This document shows, one piece after another, positions 1 to 56,907 of a DNA stretch of 56,992 nt. The stretch's first letter is position 1. The number at the start of each line of letters is the position of its first letter. The notes under the pieces are model-generated. The model did no database searches and was not told where the DNA came from. It saw only the letters and a program-made list of their open reading frames with translations. Origin of the DNA: Lentisphaerota bacterium (GTDB taxonomy: Bacteria > Verrucomicrobiota > Lentisphaeria > Victivallales > Victivallaceae); NCBI GenBank assembly GCA_015061745.1, contig SUWB01000016.1, positions 1 to 56,992 on the forward strand, read 5' to 3'. Both the position numbers and the translations under genes were made by a program.

Positions 1-969
1 GTAAGCAAAACTTGTCAAATATGTGTTTATGCTTTGCGAAAAATTGCCTCTTTCCTTGATATTTGCTGTTGCAATTCTGCCAAATGCGGGATTGTCGGTT
101 TTGCAAATGCAAAAACGGCAATCCACCAAAAGTTTTTGGCAAGGATGGATGGGGTCCGGGGAAGGAAGGGAGAACCTTTTTTCAAAAAGGGTTCCCTTCC
201 TTCCCCGGCTCCTTTCACCTTGATAGAACTTCTTGTGGTTATTGCCATTATCGCCATTCTGGCGGCTATGCTGCTGCCTGCTTTGCAGCAGGCCCGGGAA
301 CGGGCTAAGAACACCACCTGTCTCAATAACTACAAAGAGATGGGCCTCGCAACAATTCAGTATGTGGCAGACAATAAAGACTGGTATTTCACCAACTGGA
401 ACAGCGGTCTCGGCCCGGGAGCCAGCTTTAACAATTGCAACGGCGGATGGGCTATCGGAGCTCCGGTCATAGCTTCATCGTCCGGTCCCAAGAAGGGGTT
501 GCTGGCTGTTTATATAGGCCATAATTCCGATGCTTATCTCGGAGCGTGGTTCCAATCAGGAACAAAAATCATCAAAAGCCGTATTGCCTGTCCCAGTTTC
601 ACCCCGCCTGCTATGGCTTCCGGGACAACTTATTACAGTTTGATGATCTCACAATTTCTGACCGCCAACGCGGTTCATCTTGCCAAAGTATTCAGACCTG
701 CGAAGTCGGCTCTTTTCGGCGAAATATCTCACACAGGTATGGGAGGATTCTATTACGGTGATGCCAATGAAACAAGCGGTGCCAAAAAGTCTGTTCTGAC
801 TCCCAGACACAGCGGAAAACTGAATATCACCTTCTTTGACGGACACGTAAAAATGATTCCCTGGGGGGCCGTTCCTCAAAGTTCCCGTTACAAATACAAC
901 TACCGCAACGGGTTCTGGCGTGCCTGGCCTGATCCGTCATTCCCGGTATCACATTTTCTTATGTACTAA
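1..969 (+). CDS. Prepilin-like protein with H-X9-DG motif, carrying the 234-bp in-frame insert (5' partial)
   Basis: The reading frame is open from base 1, so the true start lies left of the window; 322 residues are visible. Residues 1-78 are encoded by the 234-bp repeat and end in FTLIELLV, which continues into [20 protein letters not shown], the hydrophobic N-terminal helix of type IV/type II pseudopilins. The C-terminal part has [15 protein letters not shown], an exact H-X9-DG motif as in DUF1559-type prepilin-associated proteins of Planctomycetes and Lentisphaerota. By family it should be cleaved by a prepilin peptidase just before the Phe and sit in or on the cytoplasmic membrane. It is followed after 39 bp by a secreted DUF4838 enzyme, probably in the same transcript. 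The enzyme-partner role is inference; the class is clear. Confidence 0.85.
3..236 (+). repeat. 234-bp in-frame prepilin-targeting repeat, copy 1
   Basis: This unit starts AAGCAAAACTTGTC and ends TTGATAGAACTTCTTGT. It is identical base for base to copy 2 at 10342-10575, and the two sequences differ immediately after the unit (GGTT against CGTT). It lies in frame in the prepilin gene and ends with its own FTLIELLV codons. The window begins only two bases before the unit, so the left flank is missing. Confidence 0.9.
156..208. repeat. Near-perfect palindrome inside repeat copy 1
   Basis: The left arm CCGGGGAAGGAAGGGA is mirrored by CCCTTCCTTCCCCGG, and the stem continues inward through GAACC/GGGTTC and an A/T run, with one bulged base on each arm and a 2-nt loop. 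As mRNA it would form a hairpin of about 24 bp just before the rebuilt FTLIELLV codons. It has no U-tract after it, so it is not a terminator. Confidence 0.85.
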
Positions 970-1008: not shown

Positions 1009-3867
1009 ATGAAAAAATTATTATTGGCGGCAGCTCTGATTTTTACAGCTGCCGTGTGGAGTTACGAATTCAAGCAGCTCCCCAGAAGCATCAAGATTTC
1101 CGGAAAGCTGGAAAAGATCACGTCTATCACTGTCGTGAAAGATGCCTACAGTCAGGAAATCAGACTGGCTGCAACTGAATTGTGCTATGCACTGAAAGAA
1201 CTTTGCAACTTTGATGTCAAAGAAAGTGCGACTCCTGTCAAAAATTCTTTCAACATCATCGTCGGCAACGGCAAACTCATCAAGGCCGCCGGGATCACTG
1301 AAGAAATGATCCCCCAGGAAGGTTTTGTTATGCTCCGCAAGGGGAACAATCTTTATATCGCCGGTACCATCGGAGCCCTTTTCGGGTCGTATGACTTTCT
1401 GGAACGCTTCGGCAATGTGCGTTATTATTTCCCCGGCAAATACGGTACTCTGATCCCCAAAGGCAAAGGACTTTATCTGCCTCAGAATATCCGTATCGTT
1501 GACCGCCCCGATTACCTTTACCGTCACCTGGTGCTGGGTAAGCCCAAATGGTTTGAAAACAGAAAAACCTATGAAGGCGGCGGCGCGATGCCCCCCATTC
1601 CCCTGCAGAACCGCCGCTGGAGAGACGGCAGAGTCCTCTATCCGCTGATCCACTCTCTGAACCAGCTGGGTTACACCCGCCGTTTCAGCAAGAGCCATCC
1701 TGAATACTTTGCCCTGATGCCCAACGGCAAACGTTACAACACCCCTGAACTGGTCTGTACGGAGCACTTCTGCTTTTCCAACAGACAGTTTATCGAAGAG
1801 GTCAAAAAAGATGCTGTCACCTTCTTTGAAGGCAAAGATCCCAAGAGCCGCGACATCCGCATCAACGGCGGAAAATACGGTTATCACTGGACTCTTGCCG
1901 GCAACTTCAAAACCGGAAAAATTTTCGGCGTGATGCCCAATGACTACATCTACTGGTGTCACTGCAAAGAGTGCGCCAAAATCGCCCCCGGAGGCCATAC
2001 CTATATCAAAGATCCTAAAGCTGTCAAAGCTGTGGGCAACAAGATTTGGGCCTTTGCCGCCGAGATCGCCAATATGGCCAAAGACAAAAATTACGGCGGT
2101 ATCGCTATGATGGCTTACAATCCTTACAATGCCGTTCCCGATATGAAGCTGCCCGACAATCTGCTGGTGCAGCTGGCTGTGACCGGTTCCACTGCCAACC
2201 CCACGGCGATGAAAAAAGCTGACGACTACCTCAATGCCTGGTGCAAGAAACTCAACAGCAAAGTCTTTGTCTGGACCTATCCCGGCAAACATATGCGTAA
2301 AGCTATCCCCGGTATCCCCGCTATGGCTCACAACCGTGTGGGGCACTGGTTCAAGGAACGCTCCGACAGGATCAACGGTGCTCTCTTTGAATGTGAATCC
2401 GATCAGTGGATCTTTGCTCACCTCAACTGCTATATGTTCCTCCGGGTTTCCTGGGACAACTCCATTGATGTGAAGGCCGTCCTCAAGGAGTACTTTGACC
2501 GGATGTTCGGCAAAGGTTCTGCTGAAATGCAGAAAGTCTACGACGAACTGGAGCGTCTCTGGTGCGACAAAGTCGTGGGCGATACGATGGACTCCCCCAT
2601 CGGTCCTCTGACCCGTATTCCTATCGACATCGAATTGTGGAACGAGATCTACTCCCCCAAAAAACTTGCTGAACTTGAAAAGCTGGTCGCCACCGCCGTG
2701 AAAAAATGCGGCAAGGACAAAGAAGCCGCAGCCCGCTGCCGCTTTATGGGCGACAAACTGGTTGGCCCCCTGAAAGATGCCGAACAGCTTTTCCGCCGCA
2801 ATCAGGATTCAGTGCAGGATTGGAGCTGCCGCCTCAACGAAAAAATCCATTTGCGTCCCTATCATATCGACTGGAATGAAGTCAGCACCGTGGTGACTGC
2901 CAAAGAAAACAAAGATTCTTTCGTCTTCCGTTATGAGTGTGAAGAACCCCTTATGAACAAGGTCAAGGCCGACTATGTCCCCAACAGCAGTCTGGATCTT
3001 TTCCGTGACTCTGTGGTGGAACTTTTCCTCAATCCTTCCGGTGACCGGAAAAACTATCTGCACTTCATCACCAACAGCAAGGGGCATCTTTATTCCCAGC
3101 GCAACCAGTTTGATCTCAACTTCCCCAAACGCTTAGGTGCAGTTTCCGGTGTTAAAAGCGTTACCGGCAAAACCGCCAACGGCTGGTATGCTGAATTCAC
3201 CGTCCCCAAGAAGGTGCTGGGCAATTACGACAAAAAAGGTTTCCCTGTGAACTTTGCCCGGAACCGTGCCCTGAACGGAATGGTCGTCGGAAAAGATTAC
3301 AAAGAAAACTATTACCACTGGGGCCCCACCCCCGGACGGGCTTTCCACCAGGTGGAACGTTTCGGTACTCTGAAGCTTGACAAAGCCCCCGCTCCCATTG
3401 TCCGGGACGGAGATTTTACAGAAAACACGATCAAACGCAGCCACGTTCTCGGCCCCTGGATCATCTGGCGTTCACAGAAAAAGACTCCTCAGAATCAGCC
3501 TGTGGAATTGGATAAAAAGATCTTCATCACCGGCGGCAGCAGTGTCCATATGAAAAGCACCGGCGGCAAGATCGGACTCTTTCAGGAAGCACAGAATCTG
3601 AAGCCGAACAAGAAATATATGTTCTCTTTCTTTGTCCGTACCAAAGATGTCCAAACCGGTCTTTCTATGGGGGTTGCTCCCAGAGTGGTCTGGAAAGACA
3701 ACGGTATGCGTCCCTTCCCCCCTGTTTCCGGAACCCGTCCGTGGCACCGGGTGGCAGTGGAATTCAAGACCCCTGCCAAACTGCCGGCCAAGCCCTGGAT
3801 CTATATCTGGTTCTGGGGCAAAGGTGAAGCGTGGGTCGACCACGTTTCAATCAATGAACTGCCTTGA
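1009..3867 (+). CDS. Secreted DUF4838 protein, putative glycoside hydrolase with CBM9-like and galactose-binding-like C-terminal domains
   Basis: 952 residues with a Sec signal peptide (MKKLLLAAALIFTAAVWS). Residues ~25-160 resemble the alpha/beta N-terminal domain found before GH67-like and DUF4838 barrels. Residues ~180-560 are the DUF4838 region, with the typical aromatic/cysteine stretch PNDYIYWCHCKECAKI. Residues ~605-790 look like a CBM9-type domain, and ~795-952 like a CBM4/9-type jelly roll ending in GEAWVDHVSINEL. DUF4838 is associated with polysaccharide breakdown, but its reaction is not known from sequence alone. The start has a good ribosome site (AAAGGAAC) 6 bp upstream. It is probably co-transcribed with the preceding prepilin and followed by a double terminator. 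A distant relative lies at 20666-23629. Confidence 0.82.
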   Translation: MKKLLLAAALIFTAAVWSYEFKQLPRSIKISGKLEKITSITVVKDAYSQEIRLAATELCYALKELCNFDVKESATPVKNSFNIIVGNGKLIKAAGITEEMIPQEGFVMLRKGNNLYIAGTIGALFGSYDFLERFGNVRYYFPGKYGTLIPKGKGLYLPQNIRIVDRPDYLYRHLVLGKPKWFENRKTYEGGGAMPPIPLQNRRWRDGRVLYPLIHSLNQLGYTRRFSKSHPEYFALMPNGKRYNTPELVCTEHFCFSNRQFIEEVKKDAVTFFEGKDPKSRDIRINGGKYGYHWTLAGNFKTGKIFGVMPNDYIYWCHCKECAKIAPGGHTYIKDPKAVKAVGNKIWAFAAEIANMAKDKNYGGIAMMAYNPYNAVPDMKLPDNLLVQLAVTGSTANPTAMKKADDYLNAWCKKLNSKVFVWTYPGKHMRKAIPGIPAMAHNRVGHWFKERSDRINGALFECESDQWIFAHLNCYMFLRVSWDNSIDVKAVLKEYFDRMFGKGSAEMQKVYDELERLWCDKVVGDTMDSPIGPLTRIPIDIELWNEIYSPKKLAELEKLVATAVKKCGKDKEAAARCRFMGDKLVGPLKDAEQLFRRNQDSVQDWSCRLNEKIHLRPYHIDWNEVSTVVTAKENKDSFVFRYECEEPLMNKVKADYVPNSSLDLFRDSVVELFLNPSGDRKNYLHFITNSKGHLYSQRNQFDLNFPKRLGAVSGVKSVTGKTANGWYAEFTVPKKVLGNYDKKGFPVNFARNRALNGMVVGKDYKENYYHWGPTPGRAFHQVERFGTLKLDKAPAPIVRDGDFTENTIKRSHVLGPWIIWRSQKKTPQNQPVELDKKIFITGGSSVHMKSTGGKIGLFQEAQNLKPNKKYMFSFFVRTKDVQTGLSMGVAPRVVWKDNGMRPFPPVSGTRPWHRVAVEFKTPAKLPAKPWIYIWFWGKGEAWVDHVSINELP

Positions 3868-3983: not shown

Positions 3984-4000
3984 GCCGGAAAATACAAGAT

Positions 4001-4096
4001 TTATCGTATAAATGGGTTGACATTTGTGTTTAATGGTGTATTTTAAACAACATTGACTAAAAATAATACCAGATAAACAATACTGGAATTTTTCTT
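4001..4096 (+). promoter_or_regulatory. Duplicated promoter/operator of the GntR/LacI regulator (copy 1)
   Basis: About 96 bp match 5082-5177, the region directly upstream of the regulator gene, with only a few differences. The shared core has TTGACA (4017-4022), a 16-bp spacer and TATTTT as -10. The spacer/-10 area carries the inverted repeat TGTTTAA-N9-TTAAACA (4027-4049), a plausible operator. Here it lies upstream of a regulator remnant and the lipoprotein gene. Confidence 0.7.
4027..4049. promoter_or_regulatory. Candidate operator, perfect inverted repeat TGTTTAA-N9-TTAAACA
   Basis: A 7-bp perfect inverted repeat overlaps the proposed -10 element. The same repeat is conserved at 5108-5130. 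A site that overlaps the core promoter fits repression by the neighbouring GntR/LacI protein, which would then control both itself and the lipoprotein. That assignment is inferred from position. Confidence 0.55.
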
Positions 4097-4240
4097 ATGA
4101 ATAGCGGCAATTATGTTTCAATGAATATCCCCGGCAAACGTTTTCTGCTGCTCATCGGCGGCAGTACGGAACAATTGGGAATCGTTGAACAATATCTTTC
4201 TTCTCTGCTCCGGCAAAATCTGGCCGATGCGGGACATTAA
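4097..4240 (+). pseudogene. 47-codon remnant of the GntR/LacI regulator gene (internal deletion)
   Basis: The frame reads [20 protein letters not shown] and continues to QNLADAGH before a stop. It matches the start (ATGAAT) and then codons from about residue 64 to 107 of the regulator at 5178-6314. The DNA-binding helix-turn-helix coding part is deleted in frame, and the copy breaks off in the effector domain. The nucleotide match to the parent is near perfect, so the duplication is recent. It most likely is a dead leftover; an intact short reading frame behind an intact promoter means a small leader peptide cannot be excluded. The lipoprotein start lies 40 bp downstream. Confidence 0.75.
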
Positions 4241-4280
4241 CTGATCATTACCTTTTTGTGTAAATTATTGGAGAAAAATT

Positions 4281-5066
4281 ATGAAGAGAATCTTTGCTGC
4301 CTGTGCGTTGGCACTCCTTGCCTCCGGTTGTTCCTGTTGGTGCGGGAATGAGAACAAATCCGAACCGGAAACAATAATCGCAGTCAAAACAACTGAAAAA
4401 ATCACTCTGGACGGCAAACTTGATGAAGCCGCCTGGAAAAACGCCCCGGAACACCTTACCCATTTTATAGATACCTCTGGCAACTTGCCGGAACTGGAAC
4501 GCAAAAGTATACTGGCAGATAAGTTTGAAGCAGCCGGAATTAAAGTTCTTTACGATGACAAATATCTCTACGTCGGTGCGGTGATGCACGATGAAGATGT
4601 AGTTTCCCTGAATAAAAAAGGTCAGAATCAGACTTTCCTTTACCGTGAAGCCGACACGCTGGAAATCTTTATGTGGCCGGTTCAGGGACAGCATTATTGG
4701 GAACTCTACGTCACGCCCACCAACAACAAAACCTCGTTTTTCTTTCCTTCCGGTGGGATGACCTTTATGCCTTCACTTATGGCAGATGCCCCGATTATGC
4801 CCGGTTATGAAGTTGCTGCGACCATTCAAGGTACCCTTAATGATCACAGCGACCGCGACAAAGGATGGACGACCGAAGTACGCATCCCGCTTAAGGAAAT
4901 CAACGCTAAAGGCATTAAATTCGCTCCGGGGCAGGAGTGGAAAATATTATTTTCGCGTTACAATTATTCGCACTTTTTTTACACCAGACAGAACTCGGCG
5001 TACCCCAAACTCCCGTTTTGCAACTTTCACTTGCGCAACTACTATGCGCCGGTGGTATTCAAATGA
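4281..5066 (+). CDS. CBM9-like domain lipoprotein
   Basis: 261 residues. The N-terminus MKRIFAACALALLASGC is a lipoprotein signal with Cys17 as the modified residue, so the protein should be anchored to a membrane outside the cytoplasm. Residues ~32-250 have the CBM9-like pattern: ITLDGKLDEAAW near the start, YLYVGAVMHDEDV in the middle, then DTLEIFMWP and WTTEVRIPLKEI. This domain type binds sugars or sits beside hydrolases; no catalytic domain is present. It is probably a surface glycan-binding protein for the pathway controlled by the next regulator. It is preceded by a copy of the regulator's promoter, suggesting shared control. There is a GGAG ribosome site 8 bp before the start. Confidence 0.75.
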   Translation: MKRIFAACALALLASGCSCWCGNENKSEPETIIAVKTTEKITLDGKLDEAAWKNAPEHLTHFIDTSGNLPELERKSILADKFEAAGIKVLYDDKYLYVGAVMHDEDVVSLNKKGQNQTFLYREADTLEIFMWPVQGQHYWELYVTPTNNKTSFFFPSGGMTFMPSLMADAPIMPGYEVAATIQGTLNDHSDRDKGWTTEVRIPLKEINAKGIKFAPGQEWKILFSRYNYSHFFYTRQNSAYPKLPFCNFHLRNYYAPVVFK

Positions 5067-5081
5067 TCTAAAATGCAAAAA

Positions 5082-5177
5082 TTATCGTATAAAGGGGTTG
5101 ACATTTGTGTTTAATGGTGTATTTTAAACAGCGTTGACTAAAAATAATACCAGATAAACAATATTGGAATTTTTCTT
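5082..5177 (+). promoter_or_regulatory. Promoter/operator of the GntR/LacI regulator (copy 2)
   Basis: TTGACA at 5098-5103, a 16-bp spacer and TATTTT at 5120-5125 form a sigma-70-like promoter. The inverted repeat TGTTTAA-N9-TTAAACA (5108-5130) overlaps it. No clear Shine-Dalgarno precedes the ATG at 5178. The segment is copied at 4001-4096. Confidence 0.65.
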
Positions 5178-6314
5178 ATGAATAAAAGCAGTTTTACTTA
5201 TAAAGAGATCCTCCGCCGCATCCACAACGGTATCTATCGCCCGGGTGAAAAACTGCCCGGTGAAATCGCCTTTGCCGGGGAGTTGGGGATTTCCCGGGTC
5301 ACTTTGCGGATCGCTCTGAAACAGCTGGTCAGTGAGGGGATCGTTGAAAGTTACGGACGCAGCGGCAATTATGTTTCAATGAATATCCCCGGCAAACGTT
5401 TTCTGCTGCTCATCGGCGGCAGTACGGAACAATTGGGAATCGTTGAACAATATCTTTCTTCTCTGCTCCGGCAAAATCTCGCCAATGCGGGACACCAGCT
5501 GGAGCTGCTGGCTGTCAGTGCTCTGGAAAATATATCTCTGGAAGAGTGGAACGCTATGCTGGCAGAAAGCCGTATCGAAGGCGTCTTTCTGGGAGCAAAT
5601 TACGCACCGGAAGATTCTGCTATGCTTCATCTGTTCAATCATACAGCTGTTCCTATGATCGCTGTTCACGGCTGTGAAAAAAGCAGCATATACCATTTTC
5701 CGAAGGTGAGCGGAGGCGGAAAAGAGTGCTTTATGGATGGCGTCCGGTATCTTGCTTCCCTGGGGCACCGGCGGGTTTGTACCATCTTTTCCGAAAACAA
5801 CACCCGGGGAATTGAATTGGAGCTTTACAGGGAATTTCTGCAATGCAACGGATTGAGTGATGATCCGGGACTGATTATGAGGCTTTCTCTCAGTGAAACA
5901 AAGACCGCTGTCCGGCGGCAGCTGCTGGGCCCTGAACCGCCGACAGCGTTTATGTGTTTCTGTGATGCCCGTGCTATGCAGGTTTATGCCGCCGCCCGTG
6001 AATTGGGGATGCGTATCCCCGGACAGATTTCTGTGATGGGAATGTCCGGATATTCTGAAAGACTCTTTGCTATGCCCAGATTGAGTATGGCCAATTTCCG
6101 TTACGATCTTATTTGTGCAGAAGCCGTCAAACTGATGCTCCGTTCTGCAGAATGGTTCGGACCGGGAATGGAAAAAATATACATTACCGTTCCCCATTCC
6201 ATTGAGCCTTACGGCAGTACGGGCCCCGCTCCGGGGAGCGTGAATGGTGAACTGTCGCTGACTGCCGTATCACGTATTTTCTCGACAGGACTATATATTA
6301 CTGGCGAAGAATAA
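5178..6314 (+). CDS. GntR-type HTH regulator with LacI-like sugar-binding domain
   Basis: 378 residues. Residues ~5-70 are a GntR winged helix: [20 protein letters not shown] followed by [21 protein letters not shown]. Residues ~75-345 are a LacI/periplasmic-binding-type effector domain ([40 protein letters not shown]). This architecture is that of AraR-like sugar-responsive repressors. It precedes the prepilin/hydrolase pairs at 6362-14290 in the same direction and probably controls them, and also the lipoprotein at 4281, whose upstream region repeats its own promoter. Its last ~60 bp and the following leader are duplicated almost unchanged at ~10185-10288. Confidence 0.85.
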
Positions 6315-6361
6315 GTTTTTTTCCGGACATATTTTATAACGTGAAAAAGAAAGGAAAAGTT

Positions 6362-7039
6362 ATGATGCACAAAAGATTGCCGGAAAATCTATTCACCCTT
6401 ATCGAATTGCTTGTCGTTATTGCCATTATTGCGATTCTGGCAGCAATGCTTCTTCCTGCTTTGCAGCAGGCCAGGGACAAAGCAAAAGCCACCAAATGTA
6501 TCAACAATCTGAAACAGATCGGTCACGGATTTATGAATTACGGTGAAGATTCCGGCTGGCTGGGATACGGCAATTATCAAACCTACGGATACAGTTCCAA
6601 GATCCGCTACTGGGGGCTTATGTGTGATACTACGACCCAGGTTTCTCTTAAATATGTCAATTACAAATGGCTTCCAAACGGCAAGGCTTCAGGACTGATG
6701 GCGTGTCCGTCACAGGAAGCCAAACACGACAGTTCCGGCTGGGGAAATGTGCATTATGCCATTTCCGGTCCTCTGAGCTCTCAGGATGTGATCAAAGCAG
6801 CAGCAGACACAGCACACGCCCTTTTCAAACCTATCCACATCAAACAGCCCTCTGCCGGTTTTTACATCACGGGCAAGCGGATTACACGCACTATGGCTCA
6901 TCAGGGAGACGGGGCCAATCTGCCGCCCAACCGTCATCATCAGCACGACGGAGCTTTCTTTTTCGATCAGCACGTCGCATTGATCCGGGTGTTTCCCGTC
7001 AAGCAGGACATCTTGCCCGACTGGTGGACCGTGAAATAA
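6362..7039 (+). CDS. Prepilin-like protein without the insert (empty site)
   Basis: 225 residues. [10 protein letters not shown] is a short basic leader before [20 protein letters not shown], the pseudopilin helix. I chose the ATG at 6362 because AAAGGAAAAG ends 2 bp before it; an in-frame GTG at 6341 would put that ribosome site inside the gene. The C-terminus has [18 protein letters not shown], a variant of the H-X9-DG motif. It lies 42 bp before the large CBM9/hydrolase-like gene. It is the uninterrupted paralogue of 10289-11209, so it shows what the target looks like without the 234-bp repeat. Confidence 0.85.
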
Positions 7040-7081: not shown

Positions 7082-10000
7082 ATGACCAAAACTTTTTCCA
7101 TTCTCTTTTTGGCAGGACTTTCTCTGCTTGCCGCTGCGGAACAGGTGTATCCCGTCTTTTTCAAGCAGGATCCCGGTATCGTTATTGACGGAAATTTGAG
7201 CAGAGACGACTGGAGCGATATCAAAAACGAAAGAAAGCTGCTTCCCGGCAGAGGAAAGGAAGGAAAAGGCAGGGCTTTTTCTTTCAAAGGAGAAAAAGAT
7301 ATTTCTGCCTCAGTAAAGTTTGCCTACCGGTATGACGGTCTTTATTTGGGATTCAAAGTAACTGACGACAAACACCGTCAGAAGTGTACCGGAGCCTCAG
7401 CGTTCAAAGGCGACCACGTGGAACTGCTTCTCGATCTTCAGCCGACTCTGGCAGGCAAGGAAACAAAGTTCGGTCCCAAACAGTTTCAACTTCTGTTTTC
7501 ACCGGGCTCTTTTGACGGAAAGATCAAGCCGGAAAGTTATATGTACAAACCTGTCAAGCAGAATCTTTCTCTTCCTGTCGCTGCATTAAAAACTCCTGAC
7601 GGCTACACGCTTGAAGCCTTTATTCCCTGGAGTGTTCTGGGATTGAAAAAACAACCCGGAACACAGTTGGAAAGAACAATTGCTTTCGATATCCTTGTGT
7701 CCGATACCGATGGAGAAGCTCCTTATCAGGAAAAATATCTTTTTATGGGTAAAGCTCCTTTTGCTTTGCAGCGGGGACGGCTCTGTCTTGCTTACCTCAG
7801 TGATTCCCGGGGAACGCTCCCTTCCGGGATCGCTGATGCCGGAGAAAAAGTGCTGGCCAGAGAACTCCGGCTTGATGCCGATAAAAAGAAAGCTCTTTTT
7901 ACCTTTGATTGTGAAAATATTGCCGGAGCGGTCCCTGTGCTCAAGTTGACTGCATTCAACAACAGTTCCAACCGGGATTATGCCGGATGTGCCTCTCTGC
8001 TTTTTATCAAGGTCAACGGCAAAAATATCAACGCCGGAATGCTGAGAAACAAACCCAGTCAGGTCATACAGAAAAACGGCAAAAAATACAACTTCGTTTC
8101 CGCTGGGGGGGCAGTTACACTTCCTTACCTGAAAAACTGGCAGGCACTCCCTGCATACGGCCAGAGGAATTACATCTTCCGCGACCGTCAGGATTGGTGT
8201 AATTTTGAATTCGATGTGTCGAAACTGGTCAGAAAAGGTAAAAACAGTGTTACTGCGGAAGTTATGGTTTTTAAAGGCGGAAAAGTTTATCCTGTGACCA
8301 TCAAAAATCTTTCATTCGCCTTTTCCGGAACTCCGTCAAAGGTGAAAAAAGGAGCCCCCACAGGGGCGCTCCCGGTGGTCGTTCCGGCAAAGGTACAGAC
8401 CACACAGGCAAAGTTTTCATTTGACAACGGCAAAAAAGAAATATCTGTTGATCACAGAGGAGAAAAGTACACCGTCAGAAGTTTCTGGACCATTCCGGAG
8501 GGAAAATTTGTTACAGCAGACAATAAATATTTTACCGTCAAACGTGAAATACTCCGCAAAAAAGAGTTGATCGTTCTGAAAGACACCATCAGAAACATCT
8601 CCGGCAACGATCTGCCTGTAAAGCATTTCCACGAAATCACCGCCCCGGCAGAAAGTACATTTCACCTCAACAGCTTTGAAGTCAGCAAAAGTATGCGGGA
8701 TTTTGTCGCCAATCATAGCAACAGTTCCACCTTTGTGAAGCAGAAAAAAGGCGGTATCGGTCTTTTCCCGCTGGATGATGTGACCCGTGTTCACGCTGAA
8801 AATTATGTCAAGTCAGATACCACAGCCGGCCTTGCCGACAGAACCCTTGTCCTGCCCCCCGGAAAAAGTATCACGACTGAAATCGCTCTGATCCCCTCAA
8901 AAGCAGATTACTTTGACTTTCTTAATATCCTGCGTCGTGAACTGGATGTGAATTTTACCATCAAAGGAACTTTGATCCCCCTCAATAACTGGTGGTTCTA
9001 TGTCAATGTGTGGAACAATTACAAAGACCGGGCCAAAGCAGTGCGGCAGCTCCGGGATATCATCAAGTATTCCGGTGCTCACTATGCGTGGGCGTTCCTT
9101 GGTTTCAGCGGTACCAATATGAATATCGCTATTGACGGCAGCGGCAGACCGCTTCACCCCAGAGAGTATCACGCAAGAGATATGAAGTCCTCGGAAAAAC
9201 TTCATTCACTTCTTGCCGAAGCTGCTCCCGGATTGAGTACCAGTGTCTATTATCACTGCTTTATTGACTACTATCGCGAATCTGAAAAACTTTATGCCGA
9301 AGATGCCGTCATCAATGCCTACGGACAGAAAGAGTCATATTTCAGGACCAACAATCCCAATAAGTCATCGGGTATTTATATGCCCACTCTCACCAATAAG
9401 TTCGGCAGGGCCTGTGCAAAGCGCATCGATACGATCCTGAAGGATTTTCATCCGGCAAATGCTCACTTTTACTGGGATGAATTCACCTCTTGCAAAGTCG
9501 CTTACAGTTACAATCCCCGTCACTGGGACGGCCTTTCCGGTGATATCGATCCCAAGACCCACAAGCTGCTGCGGAAAAAAAGCTCTCTCTGTCTGATGTC
9601 CGGGGATTTCCGGCACGCTATGGTGAAAAAAATCAAAGCAGCCGGCGAAGATGTGATGGTCAACAGCCAGCCCCGGCTCCGCAGATTGATGAAAGAAAAA
9701 TTGATGTCATTTACCGAAACCGCCCAGATCGACAACTGTGCCCGGGTCCAGGTCTACACCCCCATTCAGTTGGGAAACCATCTGGTTGGGAAAAATGCTG
9801 CCGATCCGGCTGTCATCTACCATCAGATGCTGGAAGGTCTTGACTTCGGCGTCCTCTATTATTACTATCATATCCGCTATGTGCCTGATCATCATACGCT
9901 GACTCAATATATGTTCCCCATTACGCCGCTTGAACTTCACAAAGGGTATATCATCGGAAAAGAAAAGATCATTACAAAAGTCAGCGGTCTCTATGGGTGG

Positions 10001-10150
10001 GATGACGCTTCAAAGCACGAAGTCCACGTTTACGATGACAAAGGGTGGCCAGCCAAAGATTTCAAGGCTCCCTGCAAGGTCGTGAAGGGCAAAACATATA
10101 CAGAACTCAGATTGCCGGAAGATTATTCTGCAGTCATCATAAGGAAGTAA
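7082..10150 (+). CDS. Large secreted protein: CBM9-like domain plus C-terminal hydrolase-like domain (copy A)
   Basis: 1022 residues with signal peptide MTKTFSILFLAGLSLLAAA. Residues ~25-230 are CBM9-like (IVIDGNLSRDDW; DGLYLGFKVTDD; GDHVELLLDL). Residues ~270-430 look like a beta-sandwich, and ~450-620 like the beta-sandwich domain that often precedes barrel hydrolases. Residues ~630-1000 hold a probable TIM barrel with acidic/aromatic motifs such as HFYWDEF and MVNSQPRLRR. I cannot assign a CAZy family; a glycoside hydrolase role is inferred from layout and neighbours. The paralogue at 11231-14290 keeps these motifs. The prepilin at 6362 immediately precedes it. Confidence 0.72.
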   Translation: MTKTFSILFLAGLSLLAAAEQVYPVFFKQDPGIVIDGNLSRDDWSDIKNERKLLPGRGKEGKGRAFSFKGEKDISASVKFAYRYDGLYLGFKVTDDKHRQKCTGASAFKGDHVELLLDLQPTLAGKETKFGPKQFQLLFSPGSFDGKIKPESYMYKPVKQNLSLPVAALKTPDGYTLEAFIPWSVLGLKKQPGTQLERTIAFDILVSDTDGEAPYQEKYLFMGKAPFALQRGRLCLAYLSDSRGTLPSGIADAGEKVLARELRLDADKKKALFTFDCENIAGAVPVLKLTAFNNSSNRDYAGCASLLFIKVNGKNINAGMLRNKPSQVIQKNGKKYNFVSAGGAVTLPYLKNWQALPAYGQRNYIFRDRQDWCNFEFDVSKLVRKGKNSVTAEVMVFKGGKVYPVTIKNLSFAFSGTPSKVKKGAPTGALPVVVPAKVQTTQAKFSFDNGKKEISVDHRGEKYTVRSFWTIPEGKFVTADNKYFTVKREILRKKELIVLKDTIRNISGNDLPVKHFHEITAPAESTFHLNSFEVSKSMRDFVANHSNSSTFVKQKKGGIGLFPLDDVTRVHAENYVKSDTTAGLADRTLVLPPGKSITTEIALIPSKADYFDFLNILRRELDVNFTIKGTLIPLNNWWFYVNVWNNYKDRAKAVRQLRDIIKYSGAHYAWAFLGFSGTNMNIAIDGSGRPLHPREYHARDMKSSEKLHSLLAEAAPGLSTSVYYHCFIDYYRESEKLYAEDAVINAYGQKESYFRTNNPNKSSGIYMPTLTNKFGRACAKRIDTILKDFHPANAHFYWDEFTSCKVAYSYNPRHWDGLSGDIDPKTHKLLRKKSSLCLMSGDFRHAMVKKIKAAGEDVMVNSQPRLRRLMKEKLMSFTETAQIDNCARVQVYTPIQLGNHLVGKNAADPAVIYHQMLEGLDFGVLYYYYHIRYVPDHHTLTQYMFPITPLELHKGYIIGKEKIITKVSGLYGWDDASKHEVHVYDDKGWPAKDFKAPCKVVKGKTYTELRLPEDYSAVIIRK

Positions 10151-10288
10151 AAATGGTAGAAATCAGTGATTATAATGCTGCCGCTGACTGCCGTATCACG
10201 TATTTTCTCGACAGGACTATATATTACTGGCGAAAAATAAGTTTTTTTTCCGGACATATTTTATAACGTGAAAAAGAAAGGAAAAGTT
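10151..10288 (+). other. Fusion junction of the tandem duplication (GH28 start joined to regulator 3' end)
   Basis: Bases 10151-10183 match the ribosome site and first codons of the GH28 gene (compare 14291-14323: MVEIRDYNAA). From about 10185 to 10288 the sequence matches 6256-6361, the end of the regulator gene plus the prepilin leader, with about one substitution and one extra T. The switch occurs within a short shared CGCTGAC-like stretch. The resulting short frame ([20 protein letters not shown]...) is a chimera without function that I can see. Confidence 0.8.
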
Positions 10289-11209
10289 ATGACGAACAAA
10301 AGATTGCCGGAACATCTGTTCACCCTGATCGAATTACTTGTAAGCAAAACTTGTCAAATATGTGTTTATGCTTTGCGAAAAATTGCCTCTTTCCTTGATA
10401 TTTGCTGTTGCAATTCTGCCAAATGCGGGATTGTCGGTTTTGCAAATGCAAAAACGGCAATCCACCAAAAGTTTTTGGCAAGGATGGATGGGGTCCGGGG
10501 AAGGAAGGGAGAACCTTTTTTCAAAAAGGGTTCCCTTCCTTCCCCGGCTCCTTTCACCTTGATAGAACTTCTTGTCGTTATTGCCATCATTGCCATCCTT
10601 GCCGCTATGCTGCTGCCCGCTTTGCAACAGGCAAGAGGCAGGGCACACACCGTCAAGTGTATGAACAATCTGAAACAGATCGGTCACGGTTTTATGAACT
10701 ATGCCGAAGATACCGCCTGGCTCGGCTCCAATCACGAGGGGCTTTACGGCTATGAGAAGACCCAGTACTGGTTTGCCCTTATGAGCAGGAGCAACAATTT
10801 GACATCCAGCGGTAAAGTTTCTCTCGGATATCTGGATTATCCCTGGCTTGCCAACGGAAAAGCTCACAGTTATATGGAGTGCCCTTCCCAGGCTCCCGTA
10901 CACATCAGCAATGGCCGGGGCAATGTCCATTACACCATATCTGGTGCCGTTGCCAGGTCTGCTGCTGTGAAAGCGGCGGGGATCCCCGACCTTAAACTTT
11001 TCAAGCCCGGCCGCTTGACGAAACCCTCCAGTTCCTTCTATCTGGCGGATAAGATACCGAATAAAGCCACGGTCGATCAGGGAGACTCCGGCAGTCTGCC
11101 TCCCAACCGGCACAATATGCACGACAATGTATTTTACTTTGATCAGCACGTCGGTTCGATCCGTGTTTTTCCTGCCGGAATCGTTGCTCCTGCGTGGAAT
11201 GTATACTGA
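10289..11209 (+). CDS. Prepilin-like protein with 234-bp in-frame insert (filled site)
   Basis: 306 residues. [18 protein letters not shown] is followed by 78 residues from the repeat ([16 protein letters not shown] onward), which end in a second FTLIELLV and then [20 protein letters not shown]. Without the insert the protein would align end to end with 6362-7039. The first FTLIELLV now runs into a Cys-rich, charged segment and cannot form the usual helix; the second can. The ATG at 10289 has AAAGGAAAAG upstream; a GTG at 10268 is the alternative. [18 protein letters not shown] is the degenerate H-X9-DG end. It lies 21 bp before the copy B hydrolase-like gene. Confidence 0.85.
10342..10575 (+). 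repeat. 234-bp in-frame prepilin-targeting repeat, copy 2
   Basis: Identical to copy 1. The left flank is the host gene's own target, ending GAATTACTTGT, while the unit's right end carries a different version, GATAGAACTTCTTGT. Since the two differ in sequence, the right-hand copy came with the element and is not a fresh target duplication. The insert adds 78 codons and keeps the frame. Confidence 0.92.
10495..10547. repeat. Near-perfect palindrome inside repeat copy 2
   Basis: Same hairpin as at 156-208: arms CCGGGGAAGGAAGGGA and CCCTTCCTTCCCCGG with a tight TC loop. A second, smaller inverted repeat (GCAAAAAC with GTTTTTGGC) lies just upstream within the unit. Confidence 0.85.
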
Positions 11210-11230: not shown

Positions 11231-14200
11231 ATGAAAAAATTTTTACTTATCTTTTTGTTTCTTTCAGCGGCTTTTTTGAGTGGTGCAGAAAAGGTCATTC
11301 CCATCTGTTTCAAGCAGGACCCTGGTATCGTCATTGACGGCCGTCTTTCCAGAACCGACTGGGCGGATATTAAATATGAAGTGACCTTTGCACCCGGCAG
11401 AGGCAAGCAGGGCGGCTATAAGATTTTCAAATTCAAGGGGCCGCAGGATATTTCCGGTTCCGTGAAGGTTGCTTACCGGGCGGACGGACTTTATTTCGGG
11501 TTCAACGTTGTTGATGATGTGCATAAACAGAAATGCACCGGGCGCACCGCATTCAAAGGGGATCACGTGGAACTTTTTTTGGACCTCGAACCTCTTTTTG
11601 CCGGTAAAACAACAGCTTTCGGTAAAAAACAGTTCCAGATCCTCTTTTCTCCGGGGGCTTTTGACGGGAAAATCAAGCCGGAAATTTTTATGTATCATCC
11701 GGTGAAACAAAATCTGACCACCCCTGTGGCGGCGGTCAAAACCCCCGCCGGCTACTCTCTTGAAGCCTTTCTGCCCTGGAGCGTTTTCGGATTGAAAGCT
11801 GCTCCCTCCACATCCACCGGCAAGCTTATTGCTATGGATTTTCTTATTTCCGACACCGATGGTGAAGAACCTGTCCAGGAAAAATTCCTTTACGCCGGAA
11901 AAAGTCCTTACACTATGGCAAGAGGGCGGATGCTCAACTTCTATCTTTCCGACTCCCGGGGAACTCTGCCGGCTGATCTTAACGTTTCCGGAAAAATCAA
12001 CTTCTGCAAAGATCTGCTGCTTGACGGTAAAACACCTGAAAAAGTATATTCCTTTGATTTTACACCTGTTGCCGGTGCGACTCCTGTACTCAATTTCTAT
12101 GGCTGGAACGTTACCGCTGGAAGAAACTATGCCGGTTACGGCGGTGTCCTCAAGATCGAAGTCAACGGAAAAGCCGTTGCTGCCCGGATGCTCCGGAATA
12201 AACCTGAACAGGCTGTTATGAAGAACGGTAAACAGTATTTTTTCTTTTCTTCCGACAGCCGCCTGATACTTCCTTATATCAAAAATCACGCCGTTCTTCC
12301 CGGCCCCAAGTCCAGATATTATATCTTTCGGGATCAGGAAGATTGGTGTGGGTTTGAGTTGGATATATCTTCTCTGCTCCGGAAAGGAAAGAATATTATC
12401 AAGATTTCCATTCCTGTTAAGAAAAAAATCTATCCGGTTATGATCCGTGAACTTTATTTCTCTCTTTCAGCTGTCCCTTCCAAAAGGAAAGCCCCGGCTC
12501 CTACTGGTAAGATCCCTGTGATCGTTCCCGGCAGCAAGGTGGTAAAAAGTCAGTTCATCTCCAATAAAAATCAGACCGGATTGAGTGTAACTGTTGAAGG
12601 TGAAAAATATCAGGTCAGAAGTTATTGGAGTATCCCTGAAGGAAAATTCGTTTCCGGAAGTAATAAATATTTCACTCTGTCCCGTAAGATCATCCGCAAA
12701 AAAGAACTTTTTGTACTGCAGGATACCATTACAAATATTTCCGGAAAAGATCTTCCTGTCAAACATTATCACGAGATCACAGCTCCTGAAAGTGCCAAGT
12801 TCTACCTCAACAGCTTTGAAGTGAGTAAGACCTTCCGGGATTTTGTCGCCAATCATAACAACAGCTCCACCTTTGTGAAACAGCCCAAAAGCGGACTCGG
12901 ACTTTTCCCTCTCGATGATGTGACCCGTGTCCACGCTGAAAATTATGTCAAAAGCTCCACCACCGCCGGATTGGCTGACCGTTCCCTCGTGCTTGAACCG
13001 GGGAAAAAACTGACTACTGAGATCGCCGTCATCCCTTCACAGGCCGATTACTTTGATTTTCTCAACATTCTGCGCCGGGAGCTGGATGTAAACTTTCTTA
13101 TCAAGGGAAGCAACATCCCTATGGGGTTCTGGTGGCTTTACGTCAATGTGTGGTATTATCCCAAAGATCAGGCAAAAGTTGTCCGGCAGCTCCGGGATAT
13201 CGTCAAGTATACCGATTCCCATTATGTGATGGGGGGGTACAGTTACAGCGGAACCACTTATGGTTGCGGTATCGATGCACATAACCGCTTGAAACATCCA
13301 AGAGAATATAAAGCACAAAATGATGCTACCGGTAAAAAGTTGATGAATTATCTGAAAAAGGCAGCTCCCGGAGCCTGTTTTGGCGGCTATTATCACTGTT
13401 TTATCGACTATTGGCCCGAGGCGGAAAAATGGTATGCTGACGAGGCGGTGATCAATGCTTCCGGAGAACGGGAACAGTATTTCAGGATCAAGCATCCCAA
13501 TAAGTCTTCCGGCATTTATATACCGACGCTTCATAACAAGTTCGGTAAGGGATGTGAAAAACAAATCGATATGATTCTGAAAAAATACAAAACCGGAAAC
13601 GATTTTTTCTACTGGGATGAGTTCATCGAGTGTAAAGTCAGTTACAGTTACAGTCCCAAATACTGGGACGGAGTTTCCGGAGACATCGATCCCAAAACTC
13701 ACAAGCTGCTGCGGAAAAAAAGCTCTCTGTGTCTTATGTCCGGTGATTTCCGTCACGCTATGGTGAAAAAGATCAAGGCTGCCAACTTTGATGTTATGGT
13801 CAACAGTCAGCCCCGGCTCCGCCGGATTATGAATGAAAAGATCCTTTCTTTCACTGAAACTGCCCATATCGACAACTGCTCCCGGGTTCAGGTCTACACT
13901 CCTATCCAGTTGGGCAACCATCTTGTCGGTAAACGGGCGGAAGATCCGGCTGTCATCTACCGGCAGATGCTGGAAGGGCTTGACTTCGGCGTTCTCTATT
14001 ATTACTATACCATTCGCTATATCCCTGATCATCATACGCTGACTCAATATATGTTCCCTATTACGCCGCTTGAACTTCACAAAGGGTATATCATCGGAAA
14101 AGAAAAGATCATTACAAAAGTCAGCGGTCTTTACGGCTGGAATGATGCTTCAAAGCACGAAGTCCACGTTTACGATGACAAAGGGTGGCCCGCCAAAGAT

Positions 14201-14290
14201 TTCAAAGCCCCTTTCAAAACAGTGAAGGGCAGAACATATACAGAACTCAGACTGCCGGAAGATTTTTCTGCTGTCATCATAAGGAAGTAA
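11231..14290 (+). CDS. Large secreted protein: CBM9-like domain plus C-terminal hydrolase-like domain (copy B)
   Basis: 1019 residues with a signal peptide ending near SAAFLSGAE. It is collinear with the protein at 7082-10150: CBM9-like residues ~25-230, beta-sandwich regions, then the probable barrel with FFYWDEF and MVNSQPRLRR. Most of the DNA differs clearly from copy A, but the last ~290 bp are much more alike (one ~100-bp stretch has a single difference), which suggests gene conversion or a recombination edge. The catalytic family is unknown. The stop codon is 2 bp before the GH28 start, so the two are translated from one transcript. Confidence 0.72.
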   Translation: MKKFLLIFLFLSAAFLSGAEKVIPICFKQDPGIVIDGRLSRTDWADIKYEVTFAPGRGKQGGYKIFKFKGPQDISGSVKVAYRADGLYFGFNVVDDVHKQKCTGRTAFKGDHVELFLDLEPLFAGKTTAFGKKQFQILFSPGAFDGKIKPEIFMYHPVKQNLTTPVAAVKTPAGYSLEAFLPWSVFGLKAAPSTSTGKLIAMDFLISDTDGEEPVQEKFLYAGKSPYTMARGRMLNFYLSDSRGTLPADLNVSGKINFCKDLLLDGKTPEKVYSFDFTPVAGATPVLNFYGWNVTAGRNYAGYGGVLKIEVNGKAVAARMLRNKPEQAVMKNGKQYFFFSSDSRLILPYIKNHAVLPGPKSRYYIFRDQEDWCGFELDISSLLRKGKNIIKISIPVKKKIYPVMIRELYFSLSAVPSKRKAPAPTGKIPVIVPGSKVVKSQFISNKNQTGLSVTVEGEKYQVRSYWSIPEGKFVSGSNKYFTLSRKIIRKKELFVLQDTITNISGKDLPVKHYHEITAPESAKFYLNSFEVSKTFRDFVANHNNSSTFVKQPKSGLGLFPLDDVTRVHAENYVKSSTTAGLADRSLVLEPGKKLTTEIAVIPSQADYFDFLNILRRELDVNFLIKGSNIPMGFWWLYVNVWYYPKDQAKVVRQLRDIVKYTDSHYVMGGYSYSGTTYGCGIDAHNRLKHPREYKAQNDATGKKLMNYLKKAAPGACFGGYYHCFIDYWPEAEKWYADEAVINASGEREQYFRIKHPNKSSGIYIPTLHNKFGKGCEKQIDMILKKYKTGNDFFYWDEFIECKVSYSYSPKYWDGVSGDIDPKTHKLLRKKSSLCLMSGDFRHAMVKKIKAANFDVMVNSQPRLRRIMNEKILSFTETAHIDNCSRVQVYTPIQLGNHLVGKRAEDPAVIYRQMLEGLDFGVLYYYYTIRYIPDHHTLTQYMFPITPLELHKGYIIGKEKIITKVSGLYGWNDASKHEVHVYDDKGWPAKDFKAPFKTVKGRTYTELRLPEDFSAVIIRK

Positions 14291-18446: not shown

Positions 18447-18493
18447 AAAAGATATTATGAGAGACACAAAAGGTCTCTCATAATATCTTTTTT
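18447..18493. terminator. Bidirectional terminator hairpin between convergent genes
   Basis: AAAAGATATTATGAGAGAC pairs perfectly with GTCTCTCATAATATCTTTT around a short CACAAAAG loop region. An A-run on the left and a T-run on the right let it work on both strands, for the isomerase (+) and the prepilin (-). A closely similar hairpin is found at 56867-56907. Confidence 0.85.
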
Positions 18494-18571: not shown

Positions 18572-19285
18572 TTAATTCTGCCACCTGTTGTTGTAGCTGC
18601 CGTTTTCTTCACGGATAACTGTCCAGAAGCCCTGCTTGTAGTGGCCTACAACAGCGTTGATTTTAGACATAAGTACAGGAGTGGCACGGCCGTCGTAGAA
18701 TGTGACCATAGAAGTTGAACCTCCCTGATGACGGTAATGGAGTCTGGCACAGTCTCCGGATTCGCTGAAATCAGGAGAGACCAGTCGGTTGTTGTTGGGT
18801 TCGACTTCTCCGTAGTTGGCAGAGCGGGAAGGGGCAACGACCCGACTCAGTTTGATGTAATTTGTGTAACCGCTCTGATTGATGCCGACAGCATTGGTCA
18901 AACTTGTGGCAAGTCCCAGCATTTCACTTGTGACATTGGGACAGAGAAATCTGCTCCGTCTTTTGGTTCCGCCGTGGCCACCCCAGAGGAATGCACCATT
19001 TTCCGCACCGACATAGGGGGCAAGATAGCTTTTTTCCACCAGGGGATGTGACCAGGAACGGTGATTCGGATCAGAAGACTTTGCGTTCTGATAGTTGTGA
19101 AAGAAATCATTGTTGTCCTGCACATAGGATTGCGCTGTCAGCCCCAAAGTTTTCATATTGTTGAGGCAGCTGGCGGTACGGCCTCTTTCCCGGGCTTGCT
19201 GCAAAGCCGGCAGAAGCATTGCTGCCAATATGGCAATAATAGCGATAACAACGAGAAGTTCAATCAGAGTGAATTGTTTTTTCAT
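18572..19285 (-). CDS. Prepilin-like protein without the insert
   Basis: 237 residues. The start at 19285 has AAAGGAG 10 bp upstream; a longer open frame to the right is only overlap with the sialidase-like gene. [20 protein letters not shown] is the typical pseudopilin N-terminus with a four-residue leader. The C-terminal part has [18 protein letters not shown], an H-DG motif with a spacing of 11. It follows the sialidase-like gene by 22 bp, so here the prepilin is second, not first, in the unit. Another empty-site control for the 234-bp repeat. Confidence 0.87.
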
Positions 19286-19307
19286 ATCGCAATTTTCTCC
19301 TTTTTTT

Positions 19308-20420
19308 TTAAAAAGTGATGCGTGCAAAGAGGGTATCGCCCAGGTAGTCTGCGTACCAGCGTTCTTCACCTGCGGAAACAATGGCTTCGTTGTCAGAAAT
19401 GGCAATGGCCTGGAAATTGCCCATACCGGCGGCGTGGTCGCCTTCGTCAAGCATAGGCAGAACAATATTTTCGGAACTTCTGACAAGTTCGTTTTTTTCG
19501 TTGACTTCAGCAATGTAAAGGGGAGCTCTGAAGCGTGTGACGTGAGAATTTGAACCGTTGCCCCGGGTGTAGACCAGATGCAGTTTTCCGCCGCAATAGA
19601 GGAAATGCTGCTGGGTGGAGGACATTTCAAGTTTTTCGCCGTCGTCAAACTGCCAGGCTTTGATAGGCCCCCAATTCAGGCCGTCGGCACTTTCTGAAAC
19701 ATAACCGCAGCCGTCCTCAGCACGGATCGTCATTAAAACCCGGTCCCCCAGATCGACGATTGAGGGTTCCAGAAGCCCCCGGTCGACGGGGAGTTCAAGA
19801 ACGTTGCCCTTTTCGATGAATTCCAGCTTTTCACCGTCGTAGAAAAATCTTGTGGAACAGACACACCGGTCACGGCGGCCGAAAACACCGAAGGTAAGGG
19901 GGATGAAAACTTCATTTTTCCCTCTGAAAAACCACTGGGAGCTGCCGCAGGAACACATAGAACACTTTTCAAAGCCGGGAACCACCAACCTTTCCCGGGT
20001 GCGGATCCATTCGCCTTTGGCGTTGCGGATCGCCCAGACAGGATAACGGCAGACAACCGGTCCCTTGTTTTCTTCCCAGTCGCCCAGGGAGTCAAAAAGA
20101 GCTCCGTCTTTGTAATAGACATTGTGTCCGATGGCAAGAACTGTGTCAGTGGGAGCGTGATAATAAGGCACAACGTCGCACACGCCTTCTGAAATATCCT
20201 CTACGCAAGGCTGCCAGTCCAGACCGGGAATGCCCACAGGAGTGCTCCAATTTTTTCCGTCAAAGATCGATTCGTGCACGGGCCCGTAAAAATCGCTGCC
20301 GTCGGCACTCTGCAGTGACATAAAAAGAGTGCCGTCACCGAGCTTGCAGCAGCGGGTGTGAAACCAGGAAGTTCCTTTCCCGGAACGGTTTTCAAAGATA
20401 ACTGAACGTTCAATTTTCAT
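19308..20420 (-). CDS. Sialidase-like beta-propeller protein (copy 1)
   Basis: 370 residues. I start at MKIERSVIF (20420); AAGGGG lies upstream. The sequence has repeated propeller strands ([51 protein letters not shown]) like BNR/Asp-box sialidases and related glycosidases. No signal peptide, so it is probably cytoplasmic. A sialidase label is family-level only; other exo-glycosidases or phosphorylases use the same fold. It has exactly the same length as its paralogue at 23677-24789, and both share an identical 47-bp upstream element. It forms a unit with the prepilin at 18572. Confidence 0.62.
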
Positions 20421-50788: not shown

Positions 50789-51832
50789 ATGAAAAGAAAA
50801 AAATTTGTCCGCTGTCTGTTTGGGGAAAGAAAATCATTTTCTTCTCTTTTCACCTTGATAGAACTTCTTGTAAGCAAAACTTGTCAAATCTGTGTTTATG
50901 TTTTGCGAAAAATTGGTGCTTGCCTTAATATTTGCCGTTGCAATTCTGCCAAATGCGGGATTGTCGGTTTTGCGGATGCAAAAACGGCAATCCACCAAAA
51001 GTTTTTGGCAAGGATGGATGGGGCCCGGGGAAGGAAGGGAGAACCTTTTTTCAAAAAGGGTTCCCTTCCTTTCCCGGCTCCTTTCACCTTGATAGAACTT
51101 CTTGTCGTGATTGCCATCATTGCTATCCTTGCGGCGATGCTGCTGCCCGCCTTGCAGCAGGCCCGGGGGCGGGCTTTGGACTCTGTCTGCAAAAATAATC
51201 TTAAACAGACCGGCAATATGATCACCTTTTATGTTGCCGACTACAAAGATATGATGCCTGATTCCAACGGCACCGATCAGGCGACGACTGCTTACTATCA
51301 CTATCTGATCCGCAATGATAATTATGTGGGGCTGGGAAAACTTGATTCATTCCGGAACAAAAACCGTTCTCTTACAGATTCGGCGATCCTTCCCGGTACC
51401 AAGCCCGGTCATTTGTACTGCCCTGCTGTGGAGCTCAACTACAAAGACTATAAAAACGCTGCCACCCGCTGGGGCGGTGACAACAGAGACAATTTGATCA
51501 ATACTTATGAATATATCAATTCCTACGTTGCCAAAACCAATCTGAACTATTACACCTATTCAGCCAACCGGACAAAGTATGCTTCTGTTGTGCGGAACTC
51601 CGGAAAGATCAACGATGTCCGGGCTCTCAATGCTCCTGTGACGACTTGTATGCTCCACGTCAAATTTGAAGGAATGCACAACGGCAATACAAATTTGCTT
51701 TATATCGACACCACTGTCAAAGGAGCCAAATTCGTTCCCTCTTACGCATTATTGGGAACAAATGTGGGCAGTTCAGGCCATATTCTTGCTGTTATTTATG
51801 ACCGCTGGACGGGAAGATCCCCTCAATTTTAA
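50789..51832 (+). CDS. Prepilin-like protein with 234-bp in-frame insert (diverged copy)
   Basis: 347 residues. A basic leader ([20 protein letters not shown]) precedes the first FTLIELLV, then 78 residues of the repeat, then the second [20 protein letters not shown] helix. The ribosome site AGGAAAG is 6 bp upstream. The C-terminal region lacks a clear H-X9-DG motif. In this gene the first target copy is identical at the DNA level to the element's own right end. The beta-helix protein follows after 19 bp, and the divergent AraC gene probably controls both. Confidence 0.85.
50872..51105 (+). repeat. 234-bp in-frame prepilin-targeting repeat, copy 3 (diverged)
   Basis: Same length, same insertion point and same phase as copies 1 and 2, with 12 substitutions and no gaps. 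Nine of the resulting codon differences change the residue (for example Ala to Val, Phe to Cys, Cys to Arg), so the peptide is not strongly conserved, whereas length and frame are. Confidence 0.92.
51025..51077. repeat. Near-perfect palindrome inside repeat copy 3
   Basis: Same hairpin as in copies 1 and 2. One change near the right base (CCTTTCCCGG for CCTTCCCCGG) weakens a single pair; the loop and inner stem are unchanged. Confidence 0.8.
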
Positions 51833-56873: not shown

Positions 56874-56907
56874 TTATGAGAGACACAAGAGGTCTCTCAT
56901 TTTTTTG
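56867..56907 (+). terminator. Terminator-like hairpin, second copy of the 18447 sequence
   Basis: AAAGATATTATGAGAGACAC followed by GTCTCTCAT and a T-run. The inner stem (TATGAGAGAC/GTCTCTCAT) matches 18447-18493, but the outer right arm is replaced by T's. It faces the plus strand, where no gene ends nearby, so it probably arrived with a rearrangement that removed the start of the hydrolase gene. The remaining 85 bp to the window end show no feature I recognise. Confidence 0.6.

Follow-up and report, generated by a model that had tools for sequence, protein, structure and literature searches.

Three prepilin genes in a 56,992-nt stretch of a Lentisphaerota bacterium genome (contig SUWB01000016.1, positions 1 to 56,992; hereafter the window) carry the same 234-bp unit inside the codons for their FTLIELLV motif, and each gene stays open across it. 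The locus therefore raises the question of what such a unit is, how it came to lie at one codon of one gene family, and how its hosts tolerate it.

Results

The three copies lie on the + strand at 3..236, 10342..10575 and 50872..51105. Each is 234 bp long; copy 2 is identical to copy 1, and copy 3 matches copy 2 at 95%. As the preliminary description of this DNA had stated, all three are in frame and open and split a Val codon after its second base. Its further statement that each follows FTLIELLV stands for copies 2 and 3, whose left-hand motif codons occupy 10319..10341 (+, up to the GT) and 50849..50871 (+), but not visibly for copy 1, which begins two bases from the contig edge and has lost its left flank except for GT. 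The left motif of copy 2 is like that of the empty neighbour gene and unlike the element's own, while that of copy 3 is identical to the element's own there. At its right end every copy carries FTLIELLV codons, at 214..236, 10553..10575 and 51083..51105 (all +), which are near-invariant among 41 copies. The host genes are 1..969 (+, 5' end missing), 10268..11209 (+) and 50789..51832 (+). The model of the prepilin N-terminal methylation domain, TIGR02532, falls on the right-hand motif (23.3 bits, cut-off 16.3), covering residues 96-116 in the host of copy 2, where the alignment begins at the element-borne motif, and residues 99-119 in the host of copy 3. By pattern, the window contains five prepilin genes, three filled and two empty; the empty ones are a paralogue of the 10268 gene at 6341..7039 (+) and a DUF1559 prepilin at 18572..19648 (-).

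The 234-bp unit folds far better than its shuffles (single-strand DNA z -8.0, RNA z -7.6). Inverted-repeat and folding analysis place the main hairpin of copy 2 at 10495..10547 (+), with equivalents at 156-208 and 51025-51077 in copies 1 and 3, and folding analysis places a second hairpin at 10428..10463 (+).

Other features of the window deserve mention. Downstream of each of its four + strand prepilins stands a large gene (1009-3867, 7082-10150, 11231-14290 and 51852-53726), the assignments being DUF4838/GH67N, CBM9-like (two) and beta-helix, and a pairing of pilin gene and enzyme gene seems likely here. Repeats of 141 and 147 nt lie in and around two ORFs at 3989-5501. A 34-nt terminator-like hairpin repeat with T runs occurs at 18448-18481 and 56867-56900, the two copies being 97% alike.

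Copies across the genome

We searched the window's own genome (G000; 75 contigs, 3.1 Mb, 92% complete) with the 234-bp unit, here called type 1. Among the 91 matches listed (40 of 97 first-look candidates scored), 41 are long copies and the remainder are hairpin self-matches or short ends. Their flanks place every one of the 41 within a prepilin gene, in the orientation of that host gene, in frame, and open through to the right-hand FTLIELLV, which is far beyond chance. The length of 234 bp is extrapolated for the 41, and one copy, L040, is really 195 bp long. The left flank is visible in 40 copies, of which 30 have an intact FTLIELLV (L040 included, its true border being taken) and 10 a decayed remnant of it. 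Directly 3' of the long copies stands the ordinary helix VIAIIAIL in 37 cases and another cassette in four. A search with the 125-bp hairpin core (E 10, 40 of 74 candidates scored) returned only such copies together with L103 and L274, the latter at a contig edge. These two belong to seven further partial or edge copies (L078, L091, L103, L104, L118, L119 and L274), and all seven sit in prepilin leaders. No copy outside a prepilin was seen in G000 among the candidates scored, 40 of 97 and 40 of 74, a coverage that may miss copies. Sampled away from the known copies, 20 of 20 stretches totalling 400 kb (~13% of G000) gave no match to types 1-4 at E 0.01. The preliminary description had anticipated many matches, and had proposed a unit targeted to the motif, dedicated to prepilins and restoring the motif with its own right end; the flanks bear this out. 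All of these assemblies are draft metagenomes, in which near-identical repeats could misjoin some left and right flanks, and the evidence on spread and borders comes from a single genome and its 41 copies; two relatives, G016 and G020, support it less strongly.

Borders of the unit

The motifs of 25 empty prepilins were compared base by base with those at the left of 40 copies and at the right of 41. Silent sites of the left motifs vary as they do in empty prepilins. The right motifs are almost invariant except at -12, -6 and -3, and their differences track the element body (r 0.25, p 0.0007, 32 copies). Host sequence is variable from the first base 3' of GT. Similarity between elements is unrelated to that of their right flanks (r -0.01, 37 copies), and identity over the right 60 nt is 0.776 for near-identical element pairs versus 0.787 for all pairs. 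For the left motif the correlation with the element is -0.01 in 32 copies, leaving aside the hybrid or odd-left L016, L028, L038 and L040; with these four included it is 0.57 (p 0.003). Because the left motifs are like empty ones, the right motifs near-invariant and the flanks not co-inherited with the element, the borders of type 1 are exact: it enters after GT and brings the right-hand motif with it. Gene conversion with long tracts is rejected for type 1, since near-identical elements do not share their flanks. The left and right bases at -3 differ in 15 of 36 copies, and a 2-bp duplication of GT would be indistinguishable from none. A target duplication of more than 4 bp is not supported, as T stands at -5 in six left motifs against C in every right one, and the right motif has T at -6 in 33 of 36 copies regardless of the left. 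Terminal inverted repeats, a MITE feature, were not seen by eye at the ends of type 1. The right end of the type-2 cassettes of G016 has four variable silent sites within its final 12 nt (14 copies read, 13 used), and the border there is less clear.

Movement among hosts

Across 37 copies, element similarity does not follow host similarity (Mantel r -0.11, p 0.875), and in three cases two 100% identical copies sit in hosts that are 28-30% alike. For these reasons we conclude that the type-1 unit moves and has spread repeatedly and independently among unrelated prepilins. Vertical descent, which the preliminary description had named as one way its proposal could fail, is rejected by the Mantel test. 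The two neighbouring genes of the window, 6341 (empty) and 10268 (filled), have a common promoter region and leader; their left 100 nt are 93% identical without gaps, their right 150 nt are 80% identical, and the insert in 10268 relative to 6341 is exactly 234 bp.

A family of cassettes

In the stretches fetched from G000, 93 FTLIELLV prepilins were found by pattern, and another listing gives 98 matches. Signature words place type 1 in 46 of the 93 and some cassette in 63. The single dedicated element of the preliminary description is thus one of several cassette types, although the rule it had recognized holds for all of them: each type is preceded by one FTLIELLV and closes with a motif of its own. 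We delimited 97 cassettes of 108-306 bp, 64 of them in G000; all 97 are multiples of 3 by construction, and this was not used as evidence. Type 1 is marked by a protein signature of 16 letters, type 2 by ..ASASYPNGVLHIFRRKMLHT..CFIRSA, type 3 by TTAQQNC..RTSR..FTQSA with a further form beginning SAACKV, and type 4 by KRSHLCCDRV..RQVKLYS. Type 5, marked by ..FFSREKKFSLSPAH, is found in relatives, which have other types too. A left end of ~18 nt (AGCAAAACTTGTCAAAT or similar) is common to types 1, 2 and 5 and part of type 3; type 4 and the remaining type 3 have other left ends. Cassettes also stack, in the orders 3-2-1 in L005, 4-1 in L031, 1-4 in L039 and 1-3 in L041, and L016, L038 and L040 are hybrids.

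Of the order's 137 genomes, 32 gave matches to a type-2 query; they represent 9 of 48 genera, and G016 alone has at least 45 matches (45 of 79 candidates scored). A type-3 query, run against 387 genomes sampled from the phylum, matched 18, every one of them belonging to the window's order. Among named assemblies, the type-1 query gave 18 loci: two belong to a Lentisphaeria bacterium from sheep colon, and the other 16, more distant, to one from roe-deer colon. Viral contigs yielded no relative of types 1 and 2, and plasmids none of type 1; a further viral scan gave prepilin-like matches (80 loci), mostly to the prepilin helix of the query. Rfam returned only matches below gathering scores, nearly all to hairpin families. 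As a separate observation, one G020 prepilin (L044) is 95.8% identical to one of G000 (L012), where other compared pairs reach at most 71%, bar a 27-residue stretch; this likeness may reflect recent transfer or misbinning.

Constraint on motif, frame and peptide

The motif is intact at the right end of 41 of 41 copies and at the left of 30 of 40 (p 0.0005). Outside the last eight codons, the distinct changes in 38 copies comprise 23 silent and 60 replacing, versus 22.5 and 57.7 at random; the absence of stops from the body, against 2.8 expected, is a weak deficit (P 0.04). The last eight codons (Pro plus FTLIELL) have 6 silent and 2 replacing distinct changes, or 33 and 2 counted per copy. The left motif is therefore under relaxed constraint and the cassette body in near-neutral drift. 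Two deletions in L119, of 23 bp and 1 bp, jointly keep the frame. One listed type-2 match, G016:C43, contains an internal stop. The leader ends in exactly FTLIELLV in 93 of the 93 pattern-found prepilins. Taken together, what counts seems to be the reading frame and the right motif, and not the cassette peptide. Judged from sequence, this pattern would fit a protein translated from an upstream start and processed at its right-hand motif. A start inside the element, at the ATG of RMDG, is unlikely, as no Shine-Dalgarno sequence was seen by eye at a proper distance and the double deletion of L119 keeps the upstream frame. The residue before F is seldom Gly in these prepilins (by eye), which counts against cutting by the peptidase.

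Hairpins and possible origin

In other species of the genus, relatives of the two-hairpin core occur at ten loci with no prepilin motif near and apparently in intergenic positions, as judged by eye (L045, L046, L047, L050, L053, L054, L058, L063, L067 and L071). Because of these relatives, type 1 may be a dispersed palindrome of the ordinary kind that ended up ahead of FTLIELLV. The first FTLIELLV codons are themselves the 3' arm of a hairpin in types 2-4 and several plain leaders, and no hairpin was seen near the motif of type 5. The arms co-vary in some cases (GGTGAAGC/GCTTCACC, GGTAAAGC/GCTTTACC and TGTGAAGC/GCTTCACA). Leaders without a full cassette (L100, L102, L105, L108, L126 and others) likewise have a palindrome with an FTL-codon arm and matching changes in both arms. 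The main hairpin of L039 (G000:C33:12803-13036) has its top in the opposite orientation to that of the window copy, as strand switching within the hairpin would produce.

Search for an enzyme

Profiles PF01797, PF00589, PF00078, PF01548 and PF00239 were run against 34 genomes of the genus. Beyond full-length tyrosine recombinases, this search yielded no enzyme candidate shared by the cassette-rich G000, G016 and G020. In G000, the Y1 transposase is present only as C-terminal fragments at C59 and C62, and IS110 only as a contig-edge fragment; no RVT_1 reverse transcriptase or serine recombinase was found. Its tyrosine recombinases are two full-length, Xer-like proteins plus two partial matches on C74. 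The integron integrase IntI was not found in G000, where TIGR02249 gave 139 and 123 bits against a cut-off of 265. In G016 the profiles gave a single Y1 match, a single serine recombinase and eight matches to tyrosine recombinases. G020 (87% complete, with many cassettes) has two tyrosine recombinases and no Y1, RVT_1, IS110 or serine recombinase match. Either the enzyme has been lost, is missing from the draft or is of another class, or the host's own recombination acts.

Discussion

We think it probable that these units are non-autonomous palindromic cassettes inserted site-specifically at the FTLIELLV codons of prepilin genes. A cassette would enter after the GT of the last FTLIELLV codon, and its own right-end motif would rebuild FTLIELLV beside the rest of the prepilin helix with the frame kept. 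Prepilin peptidase would then cut before the right-hand motif, leaving the cassette in the discarded leader and the mature pilin unchanged, and it is this expected removal that would make the cassettes tolerable. The movement itself would have been catalysed in trans by a site-specific recombinase or a single-strand transposase, and a circle intermediate, if present, should join the FTLIELLV codons to AAGCAAAAC. That unlike cassettes obey the same rule and stack suggests that the motif DNA is the attachment site. We favour this, by inference, over a transposase binding both ends, since the FTLIELLV end is common to all cassettes and the left end only to part of them; for types 1, 2, 5 and part of 3, which have that left end in common, an end-binding transposase explains the data equally well.

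Cassettes could also be copied between prepilins by homology, through RecA or template switching over FTLIELLV and its flanking codons and with no dedicated enzyme. Some 93 prepilins have these codons in common, no enzyme was found, and the hybrids L016, L038 and L040 as well as the variable last 12 nt of type 2 in G016 are what such copying could leave behind. In type 1, however, nothing of a donor is carried over into the right flank or the left motif, and the border falls at GT; we regard this explanation as unlikely. Transposition of the HUH type (IS200/IS605- or REP-like) by a Y1 enzyme since lost, cutting after TTGT or TGGT without duplication, would account for the strong hairpins, for FTLIELLV codons forming the 3' hairpin arm in types 2-4, for the left end common to types 1, 2 and 5 and for the Y1 fragments in G000. 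Against it, G020 is rich in cassettes and has no Y1 match, three Y1 loci of relatives lack inverted repeats and ten lack a LIELL motif, and no copies were seen at other TTGT sites in searches that scored part of the candidates, so that we consider it quite improbable.

It is very doubtful that selection spreads the cassettes as leader modules useful to the host, with hairpins that regulate pilin expression or a long leader that has a role. A cassette signature in 63 of 93 prepilins and the keeping of arrays would agree with such a benefit, but the peptide drifts as at random, L119 tolerates an internal deletion, and the similarity of copies is unrelated to the host. Hardly credible at all is that the copies arose by gene duplication and vertical descent, or that they are an artefact of assembly. 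Draft contigs do finish in these repeats, at the window start and at L078 and L118; yet the Mantel correlation is absent, the empty neighbour matches on both flanks, and the same rule is found in the separate assemblies G016 and G020.

It is rare for mobile DNA to persist within genes. A place ahead of the signal motif, in the part that processing would take off the protein, seems a cheap niche for it in a family of ~93 members in G000. Such insertion would explain the long, odd prepilin leaders of G000 and its relatives. It also provides a natural setting in which to see how prepilin peptidase handles leaders 100 to 200 residues long, and it points to a site-specific mechanism that reads a 23-nt coding motif. 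A stronger version, which we put forward tentatively as possible but short of probable, is a recombination system with a protein motif as its attachment site. In it, cassettes of varied content would shuttle between dozens of prepilin genes and restore the motif in each, escaping selection since the leader peptidase of the protein itself would take their product away. This would be an integron-like cassette economy run inside coding sequence and across a whole gene family.

Comparison with known systems

In integrons, unlike cassettes are inserted at a common site, have a copy of it at their 3' end and build up arrays. The cassettes described here do the same. Integron cassettes have attC with R'/R'' boxes; here, hairpins adjoin the site in types 2-4. 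The cassettes differ from those of integrons in that the site is protein-coding, the cassettes have no gene of their own, the arrays lie inside one reading frame, and no IntI was found in G000 (92% complete). Integrative elements that restore tRNA genes carry the end of their target and rebuild it. Our cassettes also rebuild their target, but with no integrase gene inside, at a prepilin motif and as units of 108-306 bp. Inteins are mobile inserts at conserved motifs, harmless as they are removed from the protein; the cassettes likewise are mobile inserts at a conserved motif whose product would be removed, here by leader cleavage, although with no splicing and no endonuclease inside.

PARCELs are palindromic coding repeats spread among membrane proteins; they are 25-residue domains in tandem tracts (PMC2996958), whereas here the insert stands in front of a signal motif. 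In the open-licence PMC literature we found no description of prepilin-leader cassettes of this kind. The preliminary description had likened the unit to Rickettsia palindromic elements (RPE). These are short palindromic repeats, many of them in frame in protein genes, to which they add a peptide (PMC10969869). The comparison is apt as regards an in-frame palindrome: type 1 is palindromic, has many copies (41 long ones) and is in frame in all 41, at 234 bp somewhat longer than the ~150 bp of RPE. It fails as regards the hosts, since RPE are described in many unrelated genes and all 41 long copies here, from searches that scored part of their candidates, lie in prepilins, at one codon of one gene family; the cassettes, moreover, carry the motif that they interrupt and form tandem arrays. 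We file them with the in-gene palindromic elements.
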